From a virus, in IMG/VR virus record IMGVR_UViG_3300008266_000622, positions 1-20,658 of that record: a stretch of 20,658 nucleotides of DNA; one strand, written 5' to 3'. The notes under the pieces are model-generated. The model worked only from the letters and a program-made list of their open reading frames with translations, made no database searches and had not been told where the DNA came from. The stretch's first letter is position 1, and the number at the start of each line of letters is the position of its first letter. Below, one piece after another: positions 1 through 16,929 of this stretch. Made by a program: the position numbers and the translations under genes.

Positions 1-1164
1 TTCGTCTTTGCTAATGTCGAATAGGAAAGCATCGTAAGTATACAATACTAATTTAGTTTTATGACCTTTTATTATTGGTAATATATCTTGTAATATTAAA
101 ATGTTTTGTGATGTTTCTAAATTTTGGACCCAATAGTTAAATAACTTTTGAGGACCCATATTAGGTAATTGTTCTTTATAGAATCTATGATTAGATATAG
201 GACATTCAATATAACCCTCAGTATTAAACTGTTCCCATAAATTATCTATCAATGTTTGGGTTTTAGAGAAAAATTCTAAATGTTTATAATCATCAAAAAT
301 ACCTCCATACAATTGTTTAAAGGTAAGTTCTTTACTTACTTTATAATCTACTCCATAAAGTTGAGCCATATGTTCATGTATTGACTCTTCTCCAAAACTA
401 TAACCAATCTGTTTAGCAATTAAAGTTGGGTGATAAGAATCAATATCAATATCAACAAATCGTCCATTTGCTGAAACAAAAGCTTGTCTACTTCCATCTT
501 TAGGTAACGCAGCAAAATTGATACCATTAAAACTATTTGATGGTCTTTTAGTTGTAGTATCCACATTATACTGCGAGTAAATCACATTACCCTTTATTGA
601 ATGGGAGGTATTGTGAGGTGTGAAGTAATCGTCTATACGCGATGTATTCACGTTAATACCGCTTGACTCTATGGTATAGAAACACTCTATTGCTTTATTA
701 TAAAATTCTGAGTGTGGAGTAAAGTTTATTTGGGTAAAATACTCTTCACAACGTTCATAATGTTTAGCAATGGGAATAAATTTATTTATATCATTTCGGT
801 TTGGATATTGCCTATGATAGTAATTATAAATTGGAAATGATAAATTCTCTATATTGATAGGAGAATGTATTAAATTCTTTTTATTTAAGAAATACATACT
901 TGTTTTCTTATCCCTAACAAATACTTCTTTATAACTTGATATAAATTTTTTAACTTGCTGAAATGGAATAGAAAACGATTCATTATGAAAAATAGGAATA
1001 ATATATCCTTTTTTATCACCTTCAGGTCTAATATAGACTAATGAAACATCATTTAAGGCGGGATGTATTAGGTTATGATTTAGAATAAGTTCAACAAAAC
1101 ATCTGTTAGTTTGCTGTTGAGCAAACTCCTCAAATTGATGTTGACTTTCTATTAAATAATACAT
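1..1164 (-). CDS. Compact family A DNA polymerase-like protein (3' end outside window)
   Basis: Probable replicative or accessory DNA polymerase acting in the host cytoplasm. The 388 visible residues run without a stop to the left edge. The start ATG at 1164 is the first after an in-frame TGA. Residues 1-145 may be a reduced exonuclease-like region, with no clear catalytic set. Residues 163-172 (YTIESSGINV) match the 'ME-x-GI-x-V' entry to the Pol I polymerase domain. T205-K-R-P-S209 matches the T-G-R-L/P-S motif. Motif A is around D240 (DIDSYHPTLIA). Motif B/O-helix is K278-E-L-T-F282-K-Q-L-Y286-G, with the spacing of E. coli K758/F762/Y766. Motif C is Y-T-Y-D378-A-F-L-F-D. Only about 35 residues separate the GINV and RPS motifs, where Pol I has about 110, so the thumb seems largely absent. 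An AAAGG lies two bases before the ATG, too close to be a normal ribosome site. It follows the tail genes by 45 bases. Family assignment is by motif reading only. Confidence 0.72.
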   Translation of the reverse strand, partial: MYYLIESQHQFEEFAQQQTNRCFVELILNHNLIHPALNDVSLVYIRPEGDKKGYIIPIFHNESFSIPFQQVKKFISSYKEVFVRDKKTSMYFLNKKNLIHSPINIENLSFPIYNYYHRQYPNRNDINKFIPIAKHYERCEEYFTQINFTPHSEFYNKAIECFYTIESSGINVNTSRIDDYFTPHNTSHSIKGNVIYSQYNVDTTTKRPSNSFNGINFAALPKDGSRQAFVSANGRFVDIDIDSYHPTLIAKQIGYSFGEESIHEHMAQLYGVDYKVSKELTFKQLYGGIFDDYKHLEFFSKTQTLIDNLWEQFNTEGYIECPISNHRFYKEQLPNMGPQKLFNYWVQNLETSQNILILQDILPIIKGHKTKLVLYTYDAFLFDISKDE

Positions 1165-1209: not shown

Positions 1210-1758
1210 CTAAGGTTTTTCTTTGTAATATTGTGTCCAATTTTCTTTTAAATAAACACTTAAACCATATGCTCTTGATCTTTGTTCTGTTAGTTCAGTT
1301 ATATTTTTATTTGTTTGAGCAACTTTAGTTATATCGCCTGTCAATTCCCAAATTAAAGAAAATGTTTTATTAGTTTTCCAAGCTACACTAGGGTCCTTTT
1401 GGTCAAATAAGTCTTTAGTAGCTTTAGAAATTTCTACAAACAAAGGTTGGTTCAATCTTAAACTAAAATAACGCATAAAACTTCCATTTTTATAGTCTTG
1501 TTCTGTAGGGAGTAAAGGAGAATAAGGAGTTGAAGAAGCTTCAGAACTTTGTAAGGGTAAATTATTAGAAGAAACAGGAAATATTTCTTGGGTAGTTGGG
1601 TCATCAGGAGTTTTCCCAGAAAAAAATTTTCCATTATATAATTTATAGTAAGACCCCACATAAGGAGATGAATCTTTAGTAACAAAAGATAATTGAGGAG
1701 TTCCCCTGTTACTAGCATATAAACCAGTTTGAATTTTATTTTTTGGAATGTAAGCCAT
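1210..1758 (-). CDS. Phage protein of unknown function, 182 aa
   Basis: Function not recognised. The protein has no signal peptide or membrane segment. Residues about 36-56 hold a G-x-YYK-x4-GK-x-FSGKTPDDP stretch rich in Gly, Tyr and Lys. A Ser/Pro-rich linker follows at about residues 60-85, and then an acidic/basic C-terminal half with NGSFMRYFSLR and a charged end (WTQYYKEKP). The start is ATG at 1758, preceded by an A/T-rich leader and no Shine-Dalgarno. It lies 14 bases after the second hub-like gene, so it is probably co-transcribed with the tail cluster and may be a minor virion or tail-completion protein. That role is inferred from position alone. Its end is 45 bases before the polymerase-like gene. 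Confidence 0.75.
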   Translation of the reverse strand: MAYIPKNKIQTGLYASNRGTPQLSFVTKDSSPYVGSYYKLYNGKFFSGKTPDDPTTQEIFPVSSNNLPLQSSEASSTPYSPLLPTEQDYKNGSFMRYFSLRLNQPLFVEISKATKDLFDQKDPSVAWKTNKTFSLIWELTGDITKVAQTNKNITELTEQRSRAYGLSVYLKENWTQYYKEKP

Positions 1759-1772
1759 AGTTTAAATTATAA

Positions 1773-4700
1773 TTAACGAGTTGAGCTGTATGAATAATTT
1801 GGGGCAATAAATTTGGCGTCTATAGTTTCAATAGGTCTAATTACACCTTCTACTTTACCTGTATCTACTTTGTGTATGTTTAATTTAACTTTATCACTAC
1901 TATTACCTTCTATTACTCCAATTGTTCTTTTAGTTTTATCATACCATACTACTATACCTATATGATCATGAATATGACCTCGATTATAATTAAAAGTAAC
2001 CATGTCTCCAGGGTATATTTGAGTAGTAGAGTTTACAAATTGAGCTAAACCTAGGTTTTGGAAGTTAGTAAAAGTACTAGGGCAATAACCAGCTGTTATG
2101 GTTTGGCGTTTCCAATCATTAAAATATTTTTTATTAATACCGTCTATAGTTGAATCAAATTTAGCTAAATCTTGATAGGCGGCTTTATAACATAAAGTTG
2201 TAAAGAAATTACACCAATGCTCACCACTATCCCAACCTACAACTCTTGACCCTATTTGAGCCTGGAAATCAGCATTACTAAACGATTGATTACTTCCAAT
2301 TTCTTTAATATTTTGGCTATTCCAGTATTGAGCTACTTCAACTATTCTTTTTCTGATAGCTGAAAGACCTTCGGTGCTGACTGGAGGGTTATCAGTTATG
2401 TTATTTCTGTTTTCAGTGTTGGTAGGGCTACTGGTAGTGGTACTAAGTGGAGTTTCTATGACTTCAATTTTAGTTAAAAATTTAGCTGATTTTAAGTCTG
2501 GGGCACCTAAGCTGTCTAGTGTGGTAATCCAGCCTTTATCATCTATTTTATGGGTTACACCCCGGTTTATAAATTTAATAGAATTTCTATAATTTAAGGG
2601 TAGGATTTCATCATTAATAGTATATGACTCAAATAATTTTATACCACTAATCCCATCCATAGTTAGATTTAGGTTAGTAGGAATAAACCCAATACCAGGT
2701 ATATTTTCATCTTTAGTAAATTTTCCTATTTCGTATTTGTATAAATCTACTAATGCTTGTTTTCCTATGTTAATTTCATTATCATTAATATTACCATCAT
2801 TAATCTTAGCATTTAAACTAGCTCTAAATTCTATATTACTAACATATGCATTTAAAGTATTTTCTGCTGTTAATGTTTTGTCTATTCTGCTGGATTTAGA
2901 GGTGATGATTCTATCTGTATAACCAATGTTGAGTCGGCTTAATGCTACTGCATCTTCCCCAACTTTATTAGCATTTGCTTGTGCAGCAACGGTAATCTGA
3001 GTGGCAAAATTGTTAGTTAATTCAGTTTTAAGTTGAACATCTGTTACAAAGCTACCTTGTCCGTTAGATGTTTCACCTTTCCTTGCAGTATTTTGTACTA
3101 GATTGATGTTAATCTTAGTAGGTTTCATGTTTGGGTTTTTGTTGGTGTATGACTTGGTTGTCTTTATATCTTTAGCGTATTTCTCTTGACCAGGGGGGAT
3201 GTTGTAATCTTGAATGTAGAGCATATTGGCATCCTCATTATGTACGACTTTATAATTGTTTATATGACCAGTAGCAGCTTGGATACCCCCCATAATATCC
3301 TGGATGAAATCAAATACGGATAGTTTTCCATCTTCATCGATGTGGTTTACTAGTGTAGAAGAAATAAAATCCATATTTACTAAAATATGCATAAATTTTC
3401 CTAGAAATGGATATTTGGTTCTAAATCCTGGTTTTATGCGGCGTATGTTATTGTATTGCACATCCCCAGAAGTATTAACTTCGTCATCTCCTGTTTCTGC
3501 AATTGTAACTTTAGTATAGACTGTTTCTCTAACTAATTTTACTTTTATTTCATTAGCACTAGAAGCTAAGGCACTGGTACTGATGTCTACTATATCAAAT
3601 CTTGTGTTATATTGTTGATTAAGTTGCTCAAGTTCTTGTTGGGTTACAAGAGTTCCTGAAGTTTCAGTGTATGTATCACCATTGTCAAGGGTTTGATATG
3701 CACGGCCAGTACCCGTAGCATTAGTAGATTGAATTACAGAATTCATATCATCTTGGCTAATAGCTCCTGCAGCTCCATTAATTTGGGTTAGCTGGTTGTA
3801 TTTAGCTTTTTGAGCATCCGTAAGCCCAATGTTGTTATTTTCAGGTACAGGCTTATATATAACTTTAGAAGTATAAGCAACTTGGGGAGTAGAAGTATTA
3901 CTTGCTACTACGGATGCAGGTTTTAATAAGCAGACCTTAGGATCTACACTAATTTGTTTAGGAATAGTAAAACACAGGTTTTCTTCATAGTCGTAGTCTA
4001 TGTAAAATATAGGTTGGTATGTATTAGTAGAATTATTTTTAGTAGTATCATATTTCAATAAATATGACTCTATAATCCTTAACAATGTTCCTAATTTTAT
4101 GTAATAAAATACACCTCCAGTTGCTGTTCCTTCGGGGTTAGTAGTTATAATATTAAAGTTAGCCCTGTAACCCTCTTGTTTTACCAATACATGATTTTCT
4201 TTACTAAAATTTTCTTCAGGGTCAACATAATTAGGAGAAGTTAAATTATACTCAGCTTGTCTTTGAGTAATTGTTGCTATGTTGGTAGTGCATAAGCTGG
4301 AGCGGTTATCAGTATCAGATGCTTCAAACCCATCCATTTCTCCTGTAGGGTCAACTTGGGCGTCAATTTCTCTTTTGATAGCAAATAAAATCTGGTTAAG
4401 TGTAGATTTGTTTTTGTTTGCCATTACCGGAGGCAATTGATCGGTACTAACTGAAAGATTAGTACCATTATTAGTAGAGCCAGTAGGTAAGGTTTGGGCT
4501 TCAAATGGTGTTAGGGTCAGGGTTGTAGCTTCAGTCGTGGCGGTGTTTGATGGGTAGTTAATATTAACTTTTAAGGATTCTATAATATCTCCTGTTCCTC
4601 TTAAGTGTAATGTTATATCAAAACCCCCATCTTTCCTGTATGACCAAGTAAAGTTGGTTACGTACCCTAAAAATCCGTCGTAATTACCTCCAGTTTTTTC

Positions 4701-5414
4701 TCTAGTTTCTTCTATTAAATCTAAAATAGTTTCTTGAGTAGAACTTCCTTGAAAAAATTTTTTATATGCTCCTGATTGAGGAATATTGGTAATTAATTCT
4801 TTTTTGTTGTTAAAATACATGCTATGGCCCCATTCTAGCAAAACACTATACTTAAGTCTTAAATACAATGCATCTATAATTTTAAATTGGGCTAGGTTAT
4901 GACATACAATTTGAACTGTAGCTTCTCTAACAGAACCCTGTTGGCCTATGGGTTTAATGTCTGCTGATAAAATACCTGGGGCAGGTGTGTATCCGTATGC
5001 AGTGTAATCTAAGGGGAAAACGGTGTAACTACTATCAATAGTAGGTAATCCTATAGCTGGGGTGTAACCATATGCTACTGCAGGTGGAAAGTTGGGGTTT
5101 CTAACACCTCCAGTTGTTACACCTGTTTCATTCTGAGCATCTCGGGAAAAATCAAGTTTAAGTGCTCCTTGTAATACTGAGGTTTGAGCTAAGCGGTCTT
5201 TTGTAAGACTAAGTAATCCACCAAGTTCTTTAGCCTTGGCTTCATCAATATCTACTCCAGAAGCTAATCTAATCCAGGGTGTTTTGTTAGTGATGTATAT
5301 TTGGGTGTCTCTATCATATTTGTCAAAATTAGGAGATAACTTTTCTTGCCTAATTTTTATTTGTTCATCTACCCAAGGTGAGAAACTTTCACCAAGTATA
5401 TTTCTTTTTAACAT
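1773..5414 (-). CDS. Baseplate hub-like protein with C-terminal CHAP peptidoglycan hydrolase, 1213 aa
   Basis: Probable baseplate hub or central-spike protein with a lytic domain that cuts peptidoglycan during DNA injection. Residues 1-988 are closely similar to residues 1-987 of the adjacent upstream gene, from the shared MLKRNILGESF start. They include a repeated AYGYTPA motif, the segment PAPGILSADIKPIGQQGS and LEWGHS. A Ser/Thr/Asn-rich linker (about 989-1015) leads to a CHAP domain of about 180 residues. Candidate catalytic residues are Cys1068 (EHWCNFF), His1151 (HDHIGIVV) and Glu1169/Asn1171 (VIEGNSS). CHAP domains are amidases or endopeptidases; which bond is cut cannot be read here. 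The start ATG follows a leader with AAATTTAAAT and no Shine-Dalgarno, as in the paralogue. The hub role rests on size, position after the LysM-like gene and the fused hydrolase. The N-terminal fold is not proven. Confidence 0.8.
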   Translation of the reverse strand: MLKRNILGESFSPWVDEQIKIRQEKLSPNFDKYDRDTQIYITNKTPWIRLASGVDIDEAKAKELGGLLSLTKDRLAQTSVLQGALKLDFSRDAQNETGVTTGGVRNPNFPPAVAYGYTPAIGLPTIDSSYTVFPLDYTAYGYTPAPGILSADIKPIGQQGSVREATVQIVCHNLAQFKIIDALYLRLKYSVLLEWGHSMYFNNKKELITNIPQSGAYKKFFQGSSTQETILDLIEETREKTGGNYDGFLGYVTNFTWSYRKDGGFDITLHLRGTGDIIESLKVNINYPSNTATTEATTLTLTPFEAQTLPTGSTNNGTNLSVSTDQLPPVMANKNKSTLNQILFAIKREIDAQVDPTGEMDGFEASDTDNRSSLCTTNIATITQRQAEYNLTSPNYVDPEENFSKENHVLVKQEGYRANFNIITTNPEGTATGGVFYYIKLGTLLRIIESYLLKYDTTKNNSTNTYQPIFYIDYDYEENLCFTIPKQISVDPKVCLLKPASVVASNTSTPQVAYTSKVIYKPVPENNNIGLTDAQKAKYNQLTQINGAAGAISQDDMNSVIQSTNATGTGRAYQTLDNGDTYTETSGTLVTQQELEQLNQQYNTRFDIVDISTSALASSANEIKVKLVRETVYTKVTIAETGDDEVNTSGDVQYNNIRRIKPGFRTKYPFLGKFMHILVNMDFISSTLVNHIDEDGKLSVFDFIQDIMGGIQAATGHINNYKVVHNEDANMLYIQDYNIPPGQEKYAKDIKTTKSYTNKNPNMKPTKININLVQNTARKGETSNGQGSFVTDVQLKTELTNNFATQITVAAQANANKVGEDAVALSRLNIGYTDRIITSKSSRIDKTLTAENTLNAYVSNIEFRASLNAKINDGNINDNEINIGKQALVDLYKYEIGKFTKDENIPGIGFIPTNLNLTMDGISGIKLFESYTINDEILPLNYRNSIKFINRGVTHKIDDKGWITTLDSLGAPDLKSAKFLTKIEVIETPLSTTTSSPTNTENRNNITDNPPVSTEGLSAIRKRIVEVAQYWNSQNIKEIGSNQSFSNADFQAQIGSRVVGWDSGEHWCNFFTTLCYKAAYQDLAKFDSTIDGINKKYFNDWKRQTITAGYCPSTFTNFQNLGLAQFVNSTTQIYPGDMVTFNYNRGHIHDHIGIVVWYDKTKRTIGVIEGNSSDKVKLNIHKVDTGKVEGVIRPIETIDAKFIAPNYSYSSTR
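2451..5414 (-). repeat. Tandem paralogous repeat, copy 2 (shared hub region)
   Basis: This is the downstream copy of a direct repeat of about 3 kb covering the N-terminal ~988 codons of the two hub-like genes. Similarity begins in the leader, where both copies have an AAATTTAAAT tract before ATGTTAAAAAG, and stops abruptly after the VEVIET codons, where the hydrolase linkers begin. Most differences are third-position changes. Short indels lie near codons 60-95, 350-420 and 540-690. Confidence 0.9.
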
Positions 5415-5450
5415 AAATTATTTAAATTTAATTTTTAAGTATAAGAGTTA

Positions 5451-8400
5451 TTAATTTATCTTAATTATGTCCTGAATTTTAGAGTTATATTGTATGTTAA
5501 TTCCATTGTATTTGAAGAATCCTAGTATAAAACTTAAATAATTATTATTATTGCGAGCACCAGTAGCATATATTTTTAGATATGTACCTAATTCACCTTG
5601 ATAATTTTCATTAAGTGGAGCAACACATCCTATTGCTTGACTATCAGTTGCTTTTATGTTGTATTGTCCAAATTTGTGGTGACCTCTTGTTCTAGTTGGG
5701 TCTCCTGCTTCTCTTATATAGGTACTTTGCAAATTTGCTGCAGCACTTAAACTACCAATACTATTAGTAGCCCCAGAATCAGTATTACCTATATTACCCG
5801 GATTTTTAGTTGTGTAGGCTTTACTTCCAGGATAATAACCTTCAACAATTGCCTGGGCTATCATTAATAATTTTATTCCTCTGGAGAGATTGTTATAGTT
5901 TGTTTCTATTATTGGGAGATATTCTTCATAAATATATTGTTGGTTTTTAGCTTTAATATCCCACAATTTAACACCAGCTTTTATTCCTGGGTTTTTATCT
6001 TTAAATTCTTTAGGTACAGCTTTTGATGAGTCTGAAGGTGTGATGTTTGAACAATCACCCGAAGGTGCTGTGGTGGAAGATCCAGTATTACTTCCTCCTC
6101 TATTAGTACTAGGTAAAGTTTCTATGACTTCAACTTTAGTTAAAATTTTAGTTGATGTTAAGTCGGGGGCGCCTAGACTATCTAGTGTAGTAACCCAACC
6201 TTTGTCATCTATCCGGTGTGTAACTCCTTTATTTATAAATTTAATAGAATTTCTATAATTTAAAGGCAATATTGTATCATTGATTGTATATGACTCAAAT
6301 AATTTTATACCGCTAATCCCATCCATGGTTAAATTAAGATTAGTAGGGATAAATCCAACGCCTGGGATGTTTTCATCCTTAGTAAATTTTCCTATTTCGT
6401 ATTTATATAAATCTACTAATGCTTGTTTCCCCACATTAATCTCATTATCAGTAATAGTTCCATTATTGATTTGAGCATTTAGGTAGGCTCTAAATTCTAT
6501 GTTGCTAACATATGCATTTAAAGCATTTTCTGCTGTTAAAGATGCATCTATTTTGCTAGATTTAGTAGTAATAATTCTATCTTTATAACCAACATTAAGT
6601 CGACTTAGTGCTACTGCATCTTCTCCAACTATGTTACCATCAGCTTGTGCAGCTATAGTAATCTGAGTGGCAAAATTGTTAGTTAATTCAGTTTTAAGTT
6701 GAACGTCTGTTACAAAACTGCCTTGACCATTAGATGTTTCTCTTGCAGGTGCTGTGTTTTTTACTAAGTTAATATTAATCTTAGTAGGTTTTGTGTTAGG
6801 GCTAAGGTTAGTGTAACTTTTTTTAGTAGTTGCATTTTTAGTAGCCTCTTTTAAATTACTAGCATACTTTTCTTGACCTGGGGGGATGTTATAGTCCTGG
6901 ATGGAGAGTGAATTAGCATCTTCATTATATATGATTTTGTAATTATTTATATGTCCCGTAGCGGCTTGAATTCCTGATAAGATGTCCTGGATGAAATCAT
7001 ATACTGATAGTTTTCCATCTTCATCAATGCGATTCACCAGTGTAGAAGAGATAAAATCCATATTTACTAAGATGTGCATAAATCTTCCTAGGAAAGGATA
7101 TTTAGTTCTGAATTCTGATTTTATACGACGTATATTATTATACTCTGTATCTTCAGAAGCATTAATTTCTTCACCTCCAATTTCATTAGCAGTAGCTTTG
7201 GTGTAAACTCTTTTTTGAACTAATTTTACTTTTATTATATTAGCACTAGATGCTAAAGCATTAATACTAATATCTACTTGATCAAATTTTTCATTGTATT
7301 GCTGGTTAAGTTGTTCTACTTCCTGTGGAGATAGGGGTGTTCCTGCAGTTTCAGTGTATGTGTTGCCATTATCAAGGGTTTGATATGCTCCTCCAGTACC
7401 ACTAGAGTTTGTAGATTGGGTAATGCTATTCATGTCATCTAAAGTAACATCACCTCCATCTTTAGTTAATTGACTATATTTAGCTTTTTGAGCATCAGTA
7501 AGAGTACCACCATTTTCAGGTATGGGTGTAACAACTATTTTAGAAGTATAATAAGTTTGGGGAGTAGAAGTATTACTTGCTACTACAGATGCAGGTTTTA
7601 ACAAACAAACTTTAGGGTCTATACTAATTTGTTTAGGGATAGTAAAACACAGATTTTCTTCATAATCATAATCTATATAGAATATGGGTTGATATGTGTT
7701 TTTAGAATTATTTTTAGTAGTATCATATGTTAACAAATATGATTCTATAATTCTTAACAATGTTCCTAATTTTATGTAATAAAACATTGAATACGTACCT
7801 GTTTCTCCAGGATTAGTAGTTATATTGTCAAATTTAGCTCTATATCCTTCTTGTTTTACTAATACATGATTTTCTTTACTAAAATCTTCTTCTGGGTCAA
7901 TATAATTAGGGGCAACTAGGTTATACTCGGCTTGTCTTTGAGTAATAGCAAATATATTAGTAGTACATAAACTAGAAAGATTATCTGTAGCTGAAATTTC
8001 AAATCCATTCATTTCCCCGTTATTAGCATCAATTTCTCTTTTGATAGCAAACAAAATCTGGTTAAGCGTAGATTTGTTTTTGTTTGCTAATACAGAAGGT
8101 AGTTGTTCTGTGCTGATGGAAAGATTAGCACCATTGTTGGTAGAGCCGGTGGGTAAGGTTTGGGCTTCTAATGGTGTTATAGTTAAGGTTGTAACCTCAG
8201 TTGTACTAGTATTTGATGGGTAGTTGACATTGACTTTTAATGACTCTATAACATCTCCCGTACCTCTTAAATGTAAAGTTATATCAAAACCTCCGTCTTT
8301 TCTATATGACCAAGTAAAGTTAGTTACATATCCTAAAAAACCATCATAATTACCTCCTGTTTTTTCTCTGTTTTCTTCTATTAAATCAAGAATGGTTTCT

Positions 8401-9077
8401 TGGGTTGAATTAGTACTAAAGAATTTTTTATATGCTCCTGATTGAGGAATATTGGTAATTAATTCTTTTTCATTGTTAAAGTATATACTGTGGCCCCATT
8501 CCAGTAAAACACTGTATTTTAATCTTAGATATAACGCATCTATAATTTTGAACTGAGCTAAATTGTGGCATACTAATTGAACTGTAGCTTCTCTAACAGA
8601 ACCTTGTTGACCTATAGGTTTAATATCAGCCGATAAAATACCAGGAGCAGGAGTGTAACCATATGCAGTGTAATCTAAAGGGAAGGTAGTGTAATTAGCA
8701 TTGAGGGTAGGTAATCCTATAGCTGGGGTGTAGCCATAAGCCACAGCTCGGGGGGTAGTAAGATTTCTAACACCTCCAGTTGTTACACCTAAATTAGCAA
8801 TATCTCCTGTTGAAAAATCAAGTTTAAATGCTCCTTGAAGCACCGAAGTTTGGGCTAAAAGATCTCCATTAAGTTCTTGGACTCCAAGTTCTTGAGCTTT
8901 AGAACTATTAATGTTTACCCCAGAAGCTAATCTAATCCAAGGTGTTTTATTAGTAATATATATTTGGGTGTCTCTGTCGTATTTGTCAAAATTGGGAGAT
9001 AATTTTTCCTGCCGGACATTTATTTGTTTGTCTACCCAAGGTAAAAAACTTTCACCAAGTATATTTCTTTTTAACAT
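5451..9077 (-). CDS. Baseplate hub-like protein with C-terminal muramidase/transglycosylase-like domain, 1208 aa
   Basis: Paralogue of the next gene downstream: residues 1-987 align almost end to end with it. The C-terminal 220 residues are unrelated to the partner's CHAP domain. After a Gly/Ser/Thr-rich linker (about 988-1017) comes a region with a candidate catalytic Glu1079 in AQAIVEGYYPGSKAY, followed by KNPGNIGN. This is the arrangement seen in phage muramidases and structural lytic transglycosylases ('E...NNPGNI'). The domain probably cleaves the glycan strand near the cell wall while the hub is being driven through it. Differences from the paralogue in the shared part are largely synonymous or conservative, so both copies look functional. 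The gene starts 13 bases after the LysM-like gene and ends 36 bases before its paralogue. The enzyme class is assigned by motif only; a glucosaminidase of the same fold is possible. Confidence 0.8.
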   Translation of the reverse strand: MLKRNILGESFLPWVDKQINVRQEKLSPNFDKYDRDTQIYITNKTPWIRLASGVNINSSKAQELGVQELNGDLLAQTSVLQGAFKLDFSTGDIANLGVTTGGVRNLTTPRAVAYGYTPAIGLPTLNANYTTFPLDYTAYGYTPAPGILSADIKPIGQQGSVREATVQLVCHNLAQFKIIDALYLRLKYSVLLEWGHSIYFNNEKELITNIPQSGAYKKFFSTNSTQETILDLIEENREKTGGNYDGFLGYVTNFTWSYRKDGGFDITLHLRGTGDVIESLKVNVNYPSNTSTTEVTTLTITPLEAQTLPTGSTNNGANLSISTEQLPSVLANKNKSTLNQILFAIKREIDANNGEMNGFEISATDNLSSLCTTNIFAITQRQAEYNLVAPNYIDPEEDFSKENHVLVKQEGYRAKFDNITTNPGETGTYSMFYYIKLGTLLRIIESYLLTYDTTKNNSKNTYQPIFYIDYDYEENLCFTIPKQISIDPKVCLLKPASVVASNTSTPQTYYTSKIVVTPIPENGGTLTDAQKAKYSQLTKDGGDVTLDDMNSITQSTNSSGTGGAYQTLDNGNTYTETAGTPLSPQEVEQLNQQYNEKFDQVDISINALASSANIIKVKLVQKRVYTKATANEIGGEEINASEDTEYNNIRRIKSEFRTKYPFLGRFMHILVNMDFISSTLVNRIDEDGKLSVYDFIQDILSGIQAATGHINNYKIIYNEDANSLSIQDYNIPPGQEKYASNLKEATKNATTKKSYTNLSPNTKPTKININLVKNTAPARETSNGQGSFVTDVQLKTELTNNFATQITIAAQADGNIVGEDAVALSRLNVGYKDRIITTKSSKIDASLTAENALNAYVSNIEFRAYLNAQINNGTITDNEINVGKQALVDLYKYEIGKFTKDENIPGVGFIPTNLNLTMDGISGIKLFESYTINDTILPLNYRNSIKFINKGVTHRIDDKGWVTTLDSLGAPDLTSTKILTKVEVIETLPSTNRGGSNTGSSTTAPSGDCSNITPSDSSKAVPKEFKDKNPGIKAGVKLWDIKAKNQQYIYEEYLPIIETNYNNLSRGIKLLMIAQAIVEGYYPGSKAYTTKNPGNIGNTDSGATNSIGSLSAAANLQSTYIREAGDPTRTRGHHKFGQYNIKATDSQAIGCVAPLNENYQGELGTYLKIYATGARNNNNYLSFILGFFKYNGINIQYNSKIQDIIKIN
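6117..9077 (-). repeat. Tandem paralogous repeat, copy 1 (shared hub region)
   Basis: This is the upstream copy of the ~3 kb direct repeat paired with 2451-5414. It ends at the same Val-Glu-Val-Ile-Glu-Thr boundary, after which the two genes diverge completely into different hydrolase domains. A block of about 47 identical bases (6658-6704 against 2992-3038) lies inside otherwise diverged flanks. Confidence 0.9.
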
Positions 9078-9401: not shown

Positions 9402-11201
9402 TTATCCAATATACCCCTGTCTATTAGAAACTGGAGTAAAATTATGTACTGGGGTAAAGGATAAATCTACTTCTATTAGTTTAGGGAGTTTTTTTACATC
9501 ATTTAAAGGAGCCCCTAAAGCATCTCTTCCTATTTCCCATCCTCCTTCAAATGAAGGTTTTAATCCAATATTAGTTATAATTCCAGGTACATCATTTAAA
9601 TAATCTCCTACTCTTAAATTTACAAAATTTCCTCTCATATAACCATAATTAGAATAACTTGGAGCAGTAACACCTACTAAATAATTTAATTTCTCATATA
9701 GAGGCTTCATTTCTGAAAATGAGTGAGCATATATAGTGAATGATAATGAAACATCCCTAGAAAACCCGCTGTATTTATAAAAATTTTCAGCTCTTCCAAT
9801 ATATTTAAAAGACTGCCAATCTGCTTTAAAACTATCAGACATATTGTTTAAATATGCTCTAAAAAATAAAAACCAATCCGCATCACCATTAGATGAATCA
9901 TTATTTAATATTTGAAAATAAAATGGAATTAAATCCTGATTTTTAAGGTTTATTAAATCGTCAATTTCAGAAGGTGAAAGATTTTCAGGATTAAAACCTT
10001 TTATATCTAGTTTATTTATACTATCATATGAAAGAGTTTTACCAATTGGATTTAACTCAGCTGCTTTTTGAGCATCAAGAGTAAAATTTGTAGGTACATT
10101 TTCACCATATGTTTTATTTCTATTAAAAACAGTATAATCTGTGTATGGTAAAACCTGTTTACTAGGATCATTAGTAAAATTAGGGTCTATAGACTCATTA
10201 ATAGCTTTTCTAAAATCTTTAGGGGTAAGTCTAAATTCTCTAACAATATTACTTAATCCAGCTACCCCGGGTAGGGTAGAATCGGGGTCAAGGTATTGGC
10301 TTAGAATACTAGTACTAAACACATATGTGTTATTGTCTTGAGGTCTTAAATTTGTAGGGCTATAATTGTTAGTTCTATCACGAGGAGAACCATATCCTGT
10401 TCCATCAATTCTAACTCGAGTTTTGCCTAAAAAACCTAAGGTATTAGGACCTCCTCTATATGAGTAAATATATTCTCCATTTTGAGTATCTATATCATAC
10501 TCGGATTCGGCATAGCGTAGTTCTTTAGCAGTAAGAGAATTAATACCTATTTGTTTACTTTTATATATTAAAACTAATCGGTTTCCTGAGTTGCCAAGAT
10601 TATTTTCATTTTCAAGTGTAACTCTACCATATCCTCTTCTATCAAAATCTAAAGGATTTAAATCTGTTTTATCTAAATGGAATCCAAACGCATTACCCCC
10701 AGCTTGAAGCACAGTTGAATAGGGCACATATACTCTTCTACCACCCCCTGGAGCGTTAGCGCGAGTTCTTTCTAAGAGATTTTGTTTGACTGAAAATAAA
10801 AGGCCAGATACATTTTTAGTATCAAATAAAAATCTACCAACCCTTAAAGCATCTGTAGGGACAGGAGCATCTAAATCAAATGGATTAGTTTGAATTCGTG
10901 CGGCAAGATTGACATTGATGGTATCAAAAGGGTTAATGGTAAAAGTATTAAGCTGGAGGATGTTAGCTTCAAATCCTATATTAATTCCGGTACGGCTACT
11001 AGCTATATTAGCATTAGTAGTATTAAGAGCACCCTGTCTTAAGAAAAAGTCAGGGGCTCTTAATGCAAAATTCGTTCCGGATTCATCAGTGTAATCAGGT
11101 ATAGGGACAACTATGTACGGCTGGCTAGAGTCGTTGTTGTATTTTAGAGATCTATAAGCAGTCTCTAAGCCCCCTTCTATAACACCTTTGAGTAAACCCA
11201 T
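9402..11201 (-). CDS. Probable baseplate/tail-tube junction protein, 599 aa
   Basis: Structural protein, probably at the baseplate end of the tail tube. No signal peptide or membrane segment is seen. Residues 1-130 hold the N-terminal MGLLKGVIEGG and an NPFDTINVN segment that suggests a virion scaffold role. The C-terminal 160 residues contain RDVSLSFTIYAHS, then PLYEKLNYLVG, VPGIITNIGLKPSFEGGWEIG and LIEVDLSFTPVHNFTP. This beta-rich pattern (a strand, a helix-like segment packing against it, and a closing strand with 'V-x-L-x-F-x-PVH') resembles tube-like domains in tube-initiator and terminator proteins such as T4 gp48/gp54 or gpU-type proteins. The assignment to a baseplate-tube junction also follows from its place between the tape measure and LysM-like genes. 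It is longer than gp48 or gp54 and could instead be a hub component. Spacing to its neighbours is 14 and 25 bases. Confidence 0.65.
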   Translation of the reverse strand: MGLLKGVIEGGLETAYRSLKYNNDSSQPYIVVPIPDYTDESGTNFALRAPDFFLRQGALNTTNANIASSRTGINIGFEANILQLNTFTINPFDTINVNLAARIQTNPFDLDAPVPTDALRVGRFLFDTKNVSGLLFSVKQNLLERTRANAPGGGRRVYVPYSTVLQAGGNAFGFHLDKTDLNPLDFDRRGYGRVTLENENNLGNSGNRLVLIYKSKQIGINSLTAKELRYAESEYDIDTQNGEYIYSYRGGPNTLGFLGKTRVRIDGTGYGSPRDRTNNYSPTNLRPQDNNTYVFSTSILSQYLDPDSTLPGVAGLSNIVREFRLTPKDFRKAINESIDPNFTNDPSKQVLPYTDYTVFNRNKTYGENVPTNFTLDAQKAAELNPIGKTLSYDSINKLDIKGFNPENLSPSEIDDLINLKNQDLIPFYFQILNNDSSNGDADWFLFFRAYLNNMSDSFKADWQSFKYIGRAENFYKYSGFSRDVSLSFTIYAHSFSEMKPLYEKLNYLVGVTAPSYSNYGYMRGNFVNLRVGDYLNDVPGIITNIGLKPSFEGGWEIGRDALGAPLNDVKKLPKLIEVDLSFTPVHNFTPVSNRQGYIG

Positions 11202-15845: not shown

Positions 15846-16145
15846 TTAGTATTTAGGAGGTTGCTTTAATCTGCCCTTAAATTGGTCTGGGAGTTGGATT
15901 TTGCCCTCACGGATAGCTTTGGTTTGAGAAATTAAATCTTTTGGCGCGTTATTATTATTCTTTTCTTCGTAGTATTCTTTCATCTTACGAAATACAAATT
16001 TACGAAGCCACATAGGCATGTTGTAGATTGTTTCCCAATCATAGCCACCTTGGCCATGAAACACCATCTCATGAATTTGAGTAAATAAATTAATCCTATA
16101 ATCCCGAGCTAGCTCAGGCGTCAGGCCAAAAAAAGTTAAGTCCAA
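15846..16145 (-). CDS. Small tail assembly chaperone-like ORF (gp51-position), 99 aa, overlapping the gp26-like gene
   Basis: Probable partner of the gp26-like protein in tail or baseplate assembly. The 99-codon frame overlaps the end of the upstream gene by 32 bases and has no ATG at its head: the first possible start is TTG at 16145. The next ATG would remove 26 residues, including the conserved-looking FFGLTPELARDYRINLFTQIHEM. The body is helical and aromatic (YDWETIYNMPMWLRKFVFRKMKEYYEEKN), then a basic, Pro-rich end (GRLKQPPKY). Its place directly before the tape measure is that of the second frame of G/GT-type tail chaperones, which is usually reached by frameshift. In T4, gene 51 follows gene 26. 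A run of seven T (16128-16134) lies in the overlap. So this may be expressed as a C-terminal extension rather than as a free protein. Confidence 0.7.
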   Translation of the reverse strand: MDLTFFGLTPELARDYRINLFTQIHEMVFHGQGGYDWETIYNMPMWLRKFVFRKMKEYYEEKNNNNAPKDLISQTKAIREGKIQLPDQFKGRLKQPPKY

Positions 16146-16845
16146 CTGGAATGTTGACTTTTGTGTCGCTTCCTTCGGGAAAAAAGGTCAGATCAACGTC
16201 TGGCTGTACCTCCCTTATGTACTCCCTTAACGCCTTGGAGTCACGGGCTAACAAATACTTGTCTACAAATTCTCTAATGTGTGGGTTTTCTGTATTTCCT
16301 TCAACAGAAGTAATCATGTACTTTAAACGAGTTGACAACTCAGGTACATTATTTTTATAAATCTTCTTTAAACCTTCTAACTCAGCATTGATTTTTTTCT
16401 CATCAGCACTTGTTAACAACTTAAATGTAATATCTATTTTAGTTGAAGGAAGAGTAAACTTAAACTCATTTACACCTGGGTTGTAGAGGTGCTCAAGTAT
16501 AGGTTTGTTATCAATTGTAGAAAGATCAACTGTTTGTTCTTCACCACCCCACATAAAGGTATAATCTTTACCATAACCCAAAATACGAGCAGCCACTAAT
16601 AATGCGTTTTTATCGCCTACAATCAAATCATCATACTTTACATCGGAAACGATGAGTGATTTAACTAACTCGTCTAATACTGTGCCTTTTTGGATATATG
16701 ATTGGTTGGTTAAAATATCTTCTTCCCTTGCGGTCATATATTTCATTTCAATTGTACCACTTGAAAGAGGATTTTCTTTAGGGTATACTAAACCCTTTGA
16801 AGGTAAGTCCACAACTTCTGTTGGGACATTAAATTTGTTTTCCAT
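16114..16845 (-). CDS. gp26: gp26-like baseplate hub assembly / tail chaperone protein, 243 aa
   Basis: Tail or baseplate assembly factor of the T4 gp26 type, probably cytoplasmic. The opening LPSKGLVYPKENPLSSGTIE, then MKYMTAREEDILTNQSYIQKG and the GDKNALLVAARILGYGKDY segment are the family's recognisable features. The C-terminus NFFWPDA ends at a TGA that lies inside the next ORF. I place the start at ATG 16845 (MENKFNVP). A longer reading up to 16911 would begin at TTG inside the stem of a transcription terminator and would add a meaningless Phe-rich leader. It is the first gene after that terminator, so it should have its own promoter. Because it directly precedes the tape measure and overlaps a second short frame, it occupies the position of the G protein in lambda-type chaperone pairs. 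Confidence 0.82.
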   Translation of the reverse strand: MENKFNVPTEVVDLPSKGLVYPKENPLSSGTIEMKYMTAREEDILTNQSYIQKGTVLDELVKSLIVSDVKYDDLIVGDKNALLVAARILGYGKDYTFMWGGEEQTVDLSTIDNKPILEHLYNPGVNEFKFTLPSTKIDITFKLLTSADEKKINAELEGLKKIYKNNVPELSTRLKYMITSVEGNTENPHIREFVDKYLLARDSKALREYIREVQPDVDLTFFPEGSDTKVNIPVGLNFFWPDA

Positions 16846-16892
16846 AAATAATTTTGTTATAACGTTTTTGTTTGTCCTATATACATATATGA
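16846..16892 (-). promoter_or_regulatory. Probable promoter region for the chaperone-tape measure operon
   Basis: These 47 bases lie between the terminator and the gp26-like start and must carry any promoter that drives the downstream genes independently of read-through. The coding strand shows TATATGTATATAGG and, closer to the gene, a palindromic GTTATAAC. No copy of the ATATTTATAA element is present. No single box can be chosen with confidence. Confidence 0.3.
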
Positions 16893-16894
16893 AG

Positions 16895-16929
16895 AAAAAA
16901 AAAGCTCGCAAAAAATGCGAGCTCTTTTT
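16895..16929 (-). terminator. Rho-independent terminator after the tail tube gene
   Basis: An 8-base perfect stem, AGCTCGCA paired with TGCGAGCT (16903-16910 and 16916-16923), encloses a 5-base loop. Read on the minus strand it is followed by eight to nine T. It begins about 20 bases after the tube stop codon. The opposite strand also has five T after the stem, so weak bidirectional action is possible. Confidence 0.9.

Follow-up and report, generated by a model that had tools for sequence, protein, structure and literature searches.

Two hub genes in one tail operon

The window, by which we mean the whole stretch of DNA analysed, is a 20,658-base virus record that is itself probably a fragment, and its main genes all lie on the minus strand. 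In order of transcription they encode sheath, tube, a gp26-like protein, the tape measure, a 599-aa protein, a LysM/gp53-like protein of 98 aa, hub A, hub B, a 182-aa protein and a polymerase-like product. The two large hub ORFs, first noticed in a sequence-only reading, were confirmed at their positions. The features discussed here are as follows.

9402..11201, minus strand: baseplate protein of 599 aa
9091..9387, minus strand: LysM/gp53-like baseplate protein of 98 aa, directly upstream of hub A
5451..9077, minus strand: hub paralogue A, 1208 aa, transcribed first; scaffold plus lytic-transglycosylase-like C-terminal domain
6120..9077, minus strand: hub scaffold of A, residues 1-986, from the AF2 model and fold search
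5454..6080, minus strand: enzyme domain of A, residues 1000-1208, lysozyme/lytic-transglycosylase-like
5841-5843, minus strand: Glu1079 of A, catalytic candidate (NPGN at residues 1092-1095)
5415..5450, minus strand: 36-nt gap between A and B
1773..5414, minus strand: hub paralogue B, 1213 aa; hub scaffold plus CHAP-like C-terminal domain
1776..2441, minus strand: linker and CHAP-like domain of B, residues 992-1213
2211-2213, 1962-1964 and 1902-1904, minus strand: Cys1068, His1151 and Asn1171 of B, active-site candidates
1210..1758, minus strand: protein of 182 aa, also found 3′ of the hub in closely examined relatives

The 182-aa and 98-aa neighbours, together with the order of the tail genes, place A and B in the tail operon. 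Here the hub follows the tape measure and the LysM/gp53-like protein, which is the position of a gp27/gpD/VgrG-type hub. The related loci L001, L012 and L108 have the same gene order, as does Flavobacterium phage immuto as far as it is annotated. No family in Pfam or the PHROG profiles matched the 599-aa protein, which is probably of the tube-initiator or junction type. The bases preceding the start of B, TTAAATTTAAAT, repeat those preceding the start of A, so the leader was copied together with the gene. The window phage is contractile-tailed and probably a phage of Bacteroidota/Flavobacteria.

Two further observations concern the neighbourhood. The polymerase-like gene (window 1-1164), 3′ of the tail operon, matches a PHROG profile weakly (E 0.15). 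Its conservation in close relatives is 90-98%, while the hub and the 599-aa gene vary among them. A 99-aa minus-strand ORF that lacks an ATG overlaps the gp26-like ORF at its end, in the +1 (or -2) frame (window 15846-16187 and 16114-16911). A AACTTTTTTT run in this overlap is conserved in four phages (the window, L001 at 2887, L012 at 2723 and L108 at 2332). The arrangement resembles the programmed frameshifts of tail assembly chaperones, and the predicted fusion would read LNFFGLTPEL.

A shared hub body with two different enzymes

Proteins A and B are paralogous copies, 82.3% identical in amino acids and 80.3% in nucleotides over 978 aligned codons. Their alignment ends at VEVIET, the very point at which the sequence-only reading had a shared N-terminal body switch to different enzymes; past it identity falls to chance level and the domains are unrelated. 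The body shows an NG86 dN of 0.110 (dN/dS 0.12) and a dS of 0.943, a dS that gives no age for the adjacency of A and B, and none if the pair arose by joining with a relative's hub. With dN at 0.11 and dS at 0.94, purifying selection has acted on both bodies, as had been proposed. Identity at third positions is only about 0.48-0.75 throughout the length, so neither copy is an assembly echo of the other. An assembly artefact was also considered and rejected: the copies are 80% identical in DNA, further pairs exist, and the hubs of L108 and L278 are identical across samples.

The hub cores of the two copies are 85-93% identical. A set of 151 single hubs has 55 near-invariant residues; A and B each retain 54 of these and lack the same one, and neither copy carries signs of decay.

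Direct comparison with Pfam and PHROG hub profiles gave no match for the shared body. We therefore turn to structure. An AlphaFold2 model of A was built on 64 family members (model residue n corresponds to protein residue n+8), and its hub part is well predicted. In the fold search the best 48 rows, with Z from 7.2 to 12.0, were all tail hubs, VgrG-type spikes or injection-system hubs, and the first unrelated row had Z 5.8. The best match was the A-1(L) hub (8kea, Z 12.0), and the others include T4 gp27 (1k28_D, 10.7), Mu gp44 (10.6), the T5 tail-tip protein, pyocin R2 and phi812. The gp27-like core of A comprises residues ~43-283 and ~908-974 with a large insertion between them, and the same insertion occurs in B. 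The predicted structure thus assigns the shared body to the gp27/Mu gp44/VgrG-type hub fold, and the earlier assignment of this region to a hub or baseplate fold is borne out.

About ten other loci have hubs with an enzyme of the same group as that of A. Glu1079 and NPGN1092-1095 are invariant in 12 aligned sequences of this family, whose members match PHROG tail injection transglycosylase/endolysin with best E-values of 1e-10 to 1e-15; the window domain itself has no direct Pfam or PHROG match. In the full-length AF2 model the C-terminus of A is mostly below pLDDT 50, and the enzyme domain was folded separately. For this model, of pLDDT 68, the best rows were lytic transglycosylases, chitinase and goose lysozyme, at modest Z values of at most 6.8. 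The enzyme of A looks like a glycan cutter of the lytic-transglycosylase/lysozyme kind. At L165 the hub gene has no enzyme, and an A-type enzyme is encoded by an ORF of its own (3132-3794, 220 aa) that overlaps the end of that gene.

The end of B matches a PHROG endolysin (E 1.7e-6), and its enzyme has seven relatives on other hubs. Cys1068, His1151 and Asn1171 are invariant in nine aligned sequences of this family. Pfam CHAP is matched by four of the nine, the window domain not among them, with a best E-value of 9.5e-5. By these features the enzyme of B looks like a CHAP-like amidase or endopeptidase, a cutter of peptide. Direct sequence searches with both enzymes in PDB, phages and viral contigs gave no match, and the relatives of both surfaced only via hub loci. 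The residue numbers first given for Glu1079, Cys1068 and His1151 were correct. The resemblance of the two C-termini to glycan- and peptide-cleaving enzymes gains support from motifs, from PHROG and Pfam matches in relatives and from the model.

Enzyme exchange and tandem hubs in related phages

Related phages normally have one hub in the same gene order. In L001, for example, sheath, tube and polymerase-like gene share 89-98% identity with those of the window, whereas the hub shares 52-55% and has a different C-terminus. The tails of 147 hubs, trimmed of hub sequence, form about 31 sequence clusters; this number is approximate, as cluster 1 merges amidases with the CHAP group through L155. Cluster representatives match Phage_lysozyme2, Phage_lysozyme, VanY/M15, M23, Amidase_2, CHAP, DUF2272 and DUF5675 in PHROG or Pfam. 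Unrelated enzymes are often found on hubs of 71-99% identity, and 13 distinct hubs are enzyme-less, with fewer than 60 residues beyond the hub. On sequence comparison, the hub C-terminus behaves across the phage family as an exchangeable enzyme cassette.

The clearest case is a very recent cassette swap between L240 (9998-13051) and L241 (9998-13048). These hub proteins are 99% identical up to a Gly/Ser linker and carry unrelated enzymes beyond it, one M23-like and the other M15-like by motif; DNA identity resumes at the gene end.

Hubs split in two adjacent genes were also seen, at two different points, the enzyme, where present, lying on the second piece. In the first type (L127, L142, L145, L147, L153, L157 and L162) the N part has ~715-840 aa and the C part ~310-370 aa. 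In the second type (L148, L234, L269, L307, L308 and L311) the first piece has ~340-400 aa.

The sequence-only reading had proposed a search of related phages for the same kind of pair, and full-length tandem hubs do recur, in L012, L108, L277 and L275. These four pairs besides the window make up 8 of 159 distinct complete hubs; L276 is the same contig as L108, and L278 comes from another sample with hubs identical to those of L108. A search of genome contigs gave two loci, neither of them tandem. Because tandem pairs are rare, two enzymes are not generally needed, a point against the two-cut reading proposed below.

How far have the copies diverged within these pairs? Identity between copies is 57% in L108, 59% in L277, 56% in L275 and 38%, over the aligned parts, in L012, where the second copy is shorter than the first. 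Comparison of L108 with L277 gives 91% and 82% identity within slots and 57% across slots, with dN/dS of 0.13 and 0.21 in the hub part. This slot-wise inheritance under purifying selection indicates that in at least one case the two copies were retained together. In quick trees the window pair falls in one clade among single hubs and the L108/L277/L275 group in another, so their duplications were independent. The L012 copies group together on long branches, and their sister relation is unsure. Counting L108, L277 and L275 as one, though L275 may or may not share the L108 duplication, and L012 as another, there are at least two tandem lineages besides that of the window.

The first gene of the pair is lysozyme- or transglycosylase-like in the window, L012, L108 and L277, and in L275 by motif only. 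The second carries a CHAP-like domain in the window and an M15-like or DUF5675 domain in the other pairs. This order, glycanase first, is suggestive; it is not significant and, with about three independent pairs, could be due to chance. Second hubs ending in DUF5675 occur at L108 (14812-15618), L275 (12989-13606) and L277 (15599-16270), and the L275 end has a weak Tlde1 match as well. DUF5675, a family of unknown function, is possibly an L,D-transpeptidase-like wall enzyme, which would hint at its role.

A proposed double cut at injection

Since the shared body has a true hub fold, enzymes are swapped freely and pairs occur in at least two other lineages, the window pair is probably a working double-cutter and no accident. 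In the mechanism that we propose, the hub C-terminus beyond its flexible linker would serve as a socket, its cell-wall hydrolase being exchanged through recombination. On this reading the hub gene underwent duplication, or came to lie in tandem with the hub gene of a close relative, and the two copies now carry different enzymes. The A domain would cut the glycan strand and the CHAP-like domain of B the peptide. Both products would be present in virions and enter the baseplate hub, most simply as mixed trimers, and the tail tip would open the wall by two complementary cuts at injection, the phage benefiting from attack on both bonds. On balance we lean towards this reading, in which paralogous hubs with different enzymes both take part in the baseplate hub.

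More tentative is the proposal that the hub is hetero-oligomeric, an asymmetric trimer of two paralogues with different wall enzymes, and that such hubs arose repeatedly in one phage family; this we regard as possible. The contractile-tail hubs known to us are homotrimers. Two subunit types cannot sit symmetrically in a trimer, which counts against a mixed hub. With random assembly and equal expression, one quarter of virions would be expected to have a hub of a single type.

Foremost among the other explanations is that the tandem is transitory, a step in cassette exchange. A second hub with a different enzyme would be acquired alongside the first, both would be expressed meanwhile without special benefit, and recombination between them would later delete one, so that one hub remains, now with a new enzyme. 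Rampant exchange and rare tandems fit such a route, and the copies form a direct repeat able to collapse. However, the L108/L277 pair has persisted through divergence to 91% and 82% with dN/dS of 0.13-0.21, and constraint on both copies in the window is strong; we consider a mere intermediate unlikely.

Ranking below it, and improbable in our view, is the use of A and B as alternative hubs, each virion having a homotrimer of one kind, so that a burst contains two kinds of particle as bet-hedging over hosts or wall types. Each copy is indeed a complete hub with the family-invariant residues, and the slot-wise inheritance in L108 and L277, with 57% identity across slots, would fit copies that no longer mix. 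The window copies, however, are 82% identical, and 85-93% in their cores, so that mixing seems hard to avoid, while their adjacency with a 36-nt gap suggests joint expression. The least probable explanation is a division by place, one paralogue forming the central hub and the other lying at a different baseplate site or being a loosely attached or soluble virion lysin: the ~38% identity of the L012 copies (aligned parts) with a shorter second copy, the enzyme-less hubs and the separate overlapping A-type ORF of L165 agree with it, but both window copies have the same near-invariant hub residues and the same insertion.

The two-cut reading can be compared with known systems. T4 has one hub and one enzyme, the lysozyme being in a separate spike protein. 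In T4, too, a gp27-type hub fold holds a lysozyme at the tail tip (1k28_D, Z 10.7). The hub of phage immuto (MW353175, annotated carboxypeptidase) is of the same family and gene position as those of the window and ends in an M15/VanY-type domain by motif and annotation, but immuto has a single hub gene with one enzyme. The closest structural match, gp15 of Anabaena myophage A-1(L), combines two lytic activities in a single polypeptide that forms a homotrimer (PMC10966104; PDB 8kea). Like the window hubs it belongs to a contractile tail, has a gp27-like barrel and adjoins a LysM protein; its two enzymes lie in one chain, whereas the window has one enzyme per hub paralogue in two genes, and neither hub polypeptide there contains two lytic domains.

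In Bacillus phage 0305phi8-36, the available text of PMC2147016 describes gp147 as a conserved gp27-type hub domain to which exchanged wall-degrading domains are attached; several enzymes lie in one gene, and that text describes no duplicated hub. Tail-associated lysins of Gram-positive phages are likewise tail proteins in which wall-cutting domains form modules, in some cases two per chain; they come from other phages and other hosts, and the accessible portion of PMC10194240 reports no paralogous pair. As hubs that combine two lytic activities in one polypeptide are known (PMC10966104, PMC2147016), dual-bond attack from the hub is not new in itself; the sequence-only reading had overlooked these hubs, as well as the cassette nature of the hub C-terminus. 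What is new here is the division of two lytic activities between two hub paralogues. In the literature searched, with most subscription papers outside its scope, we found no description of tandem hub paralogues that bear different enzymes.

With such a natural pair, two hub paralogues whose enzymes complement each other, one can ask whether a phage mixes its hub subunits and what makes it necessary to break two bonds at injection. The phage family as a whole is a natural catalogue, with about 31 clusters of wall-cutting domains on one scaffold and a clean joint at the linker, and is useful for understanding how virions adapt to the cell walls of their hosts.
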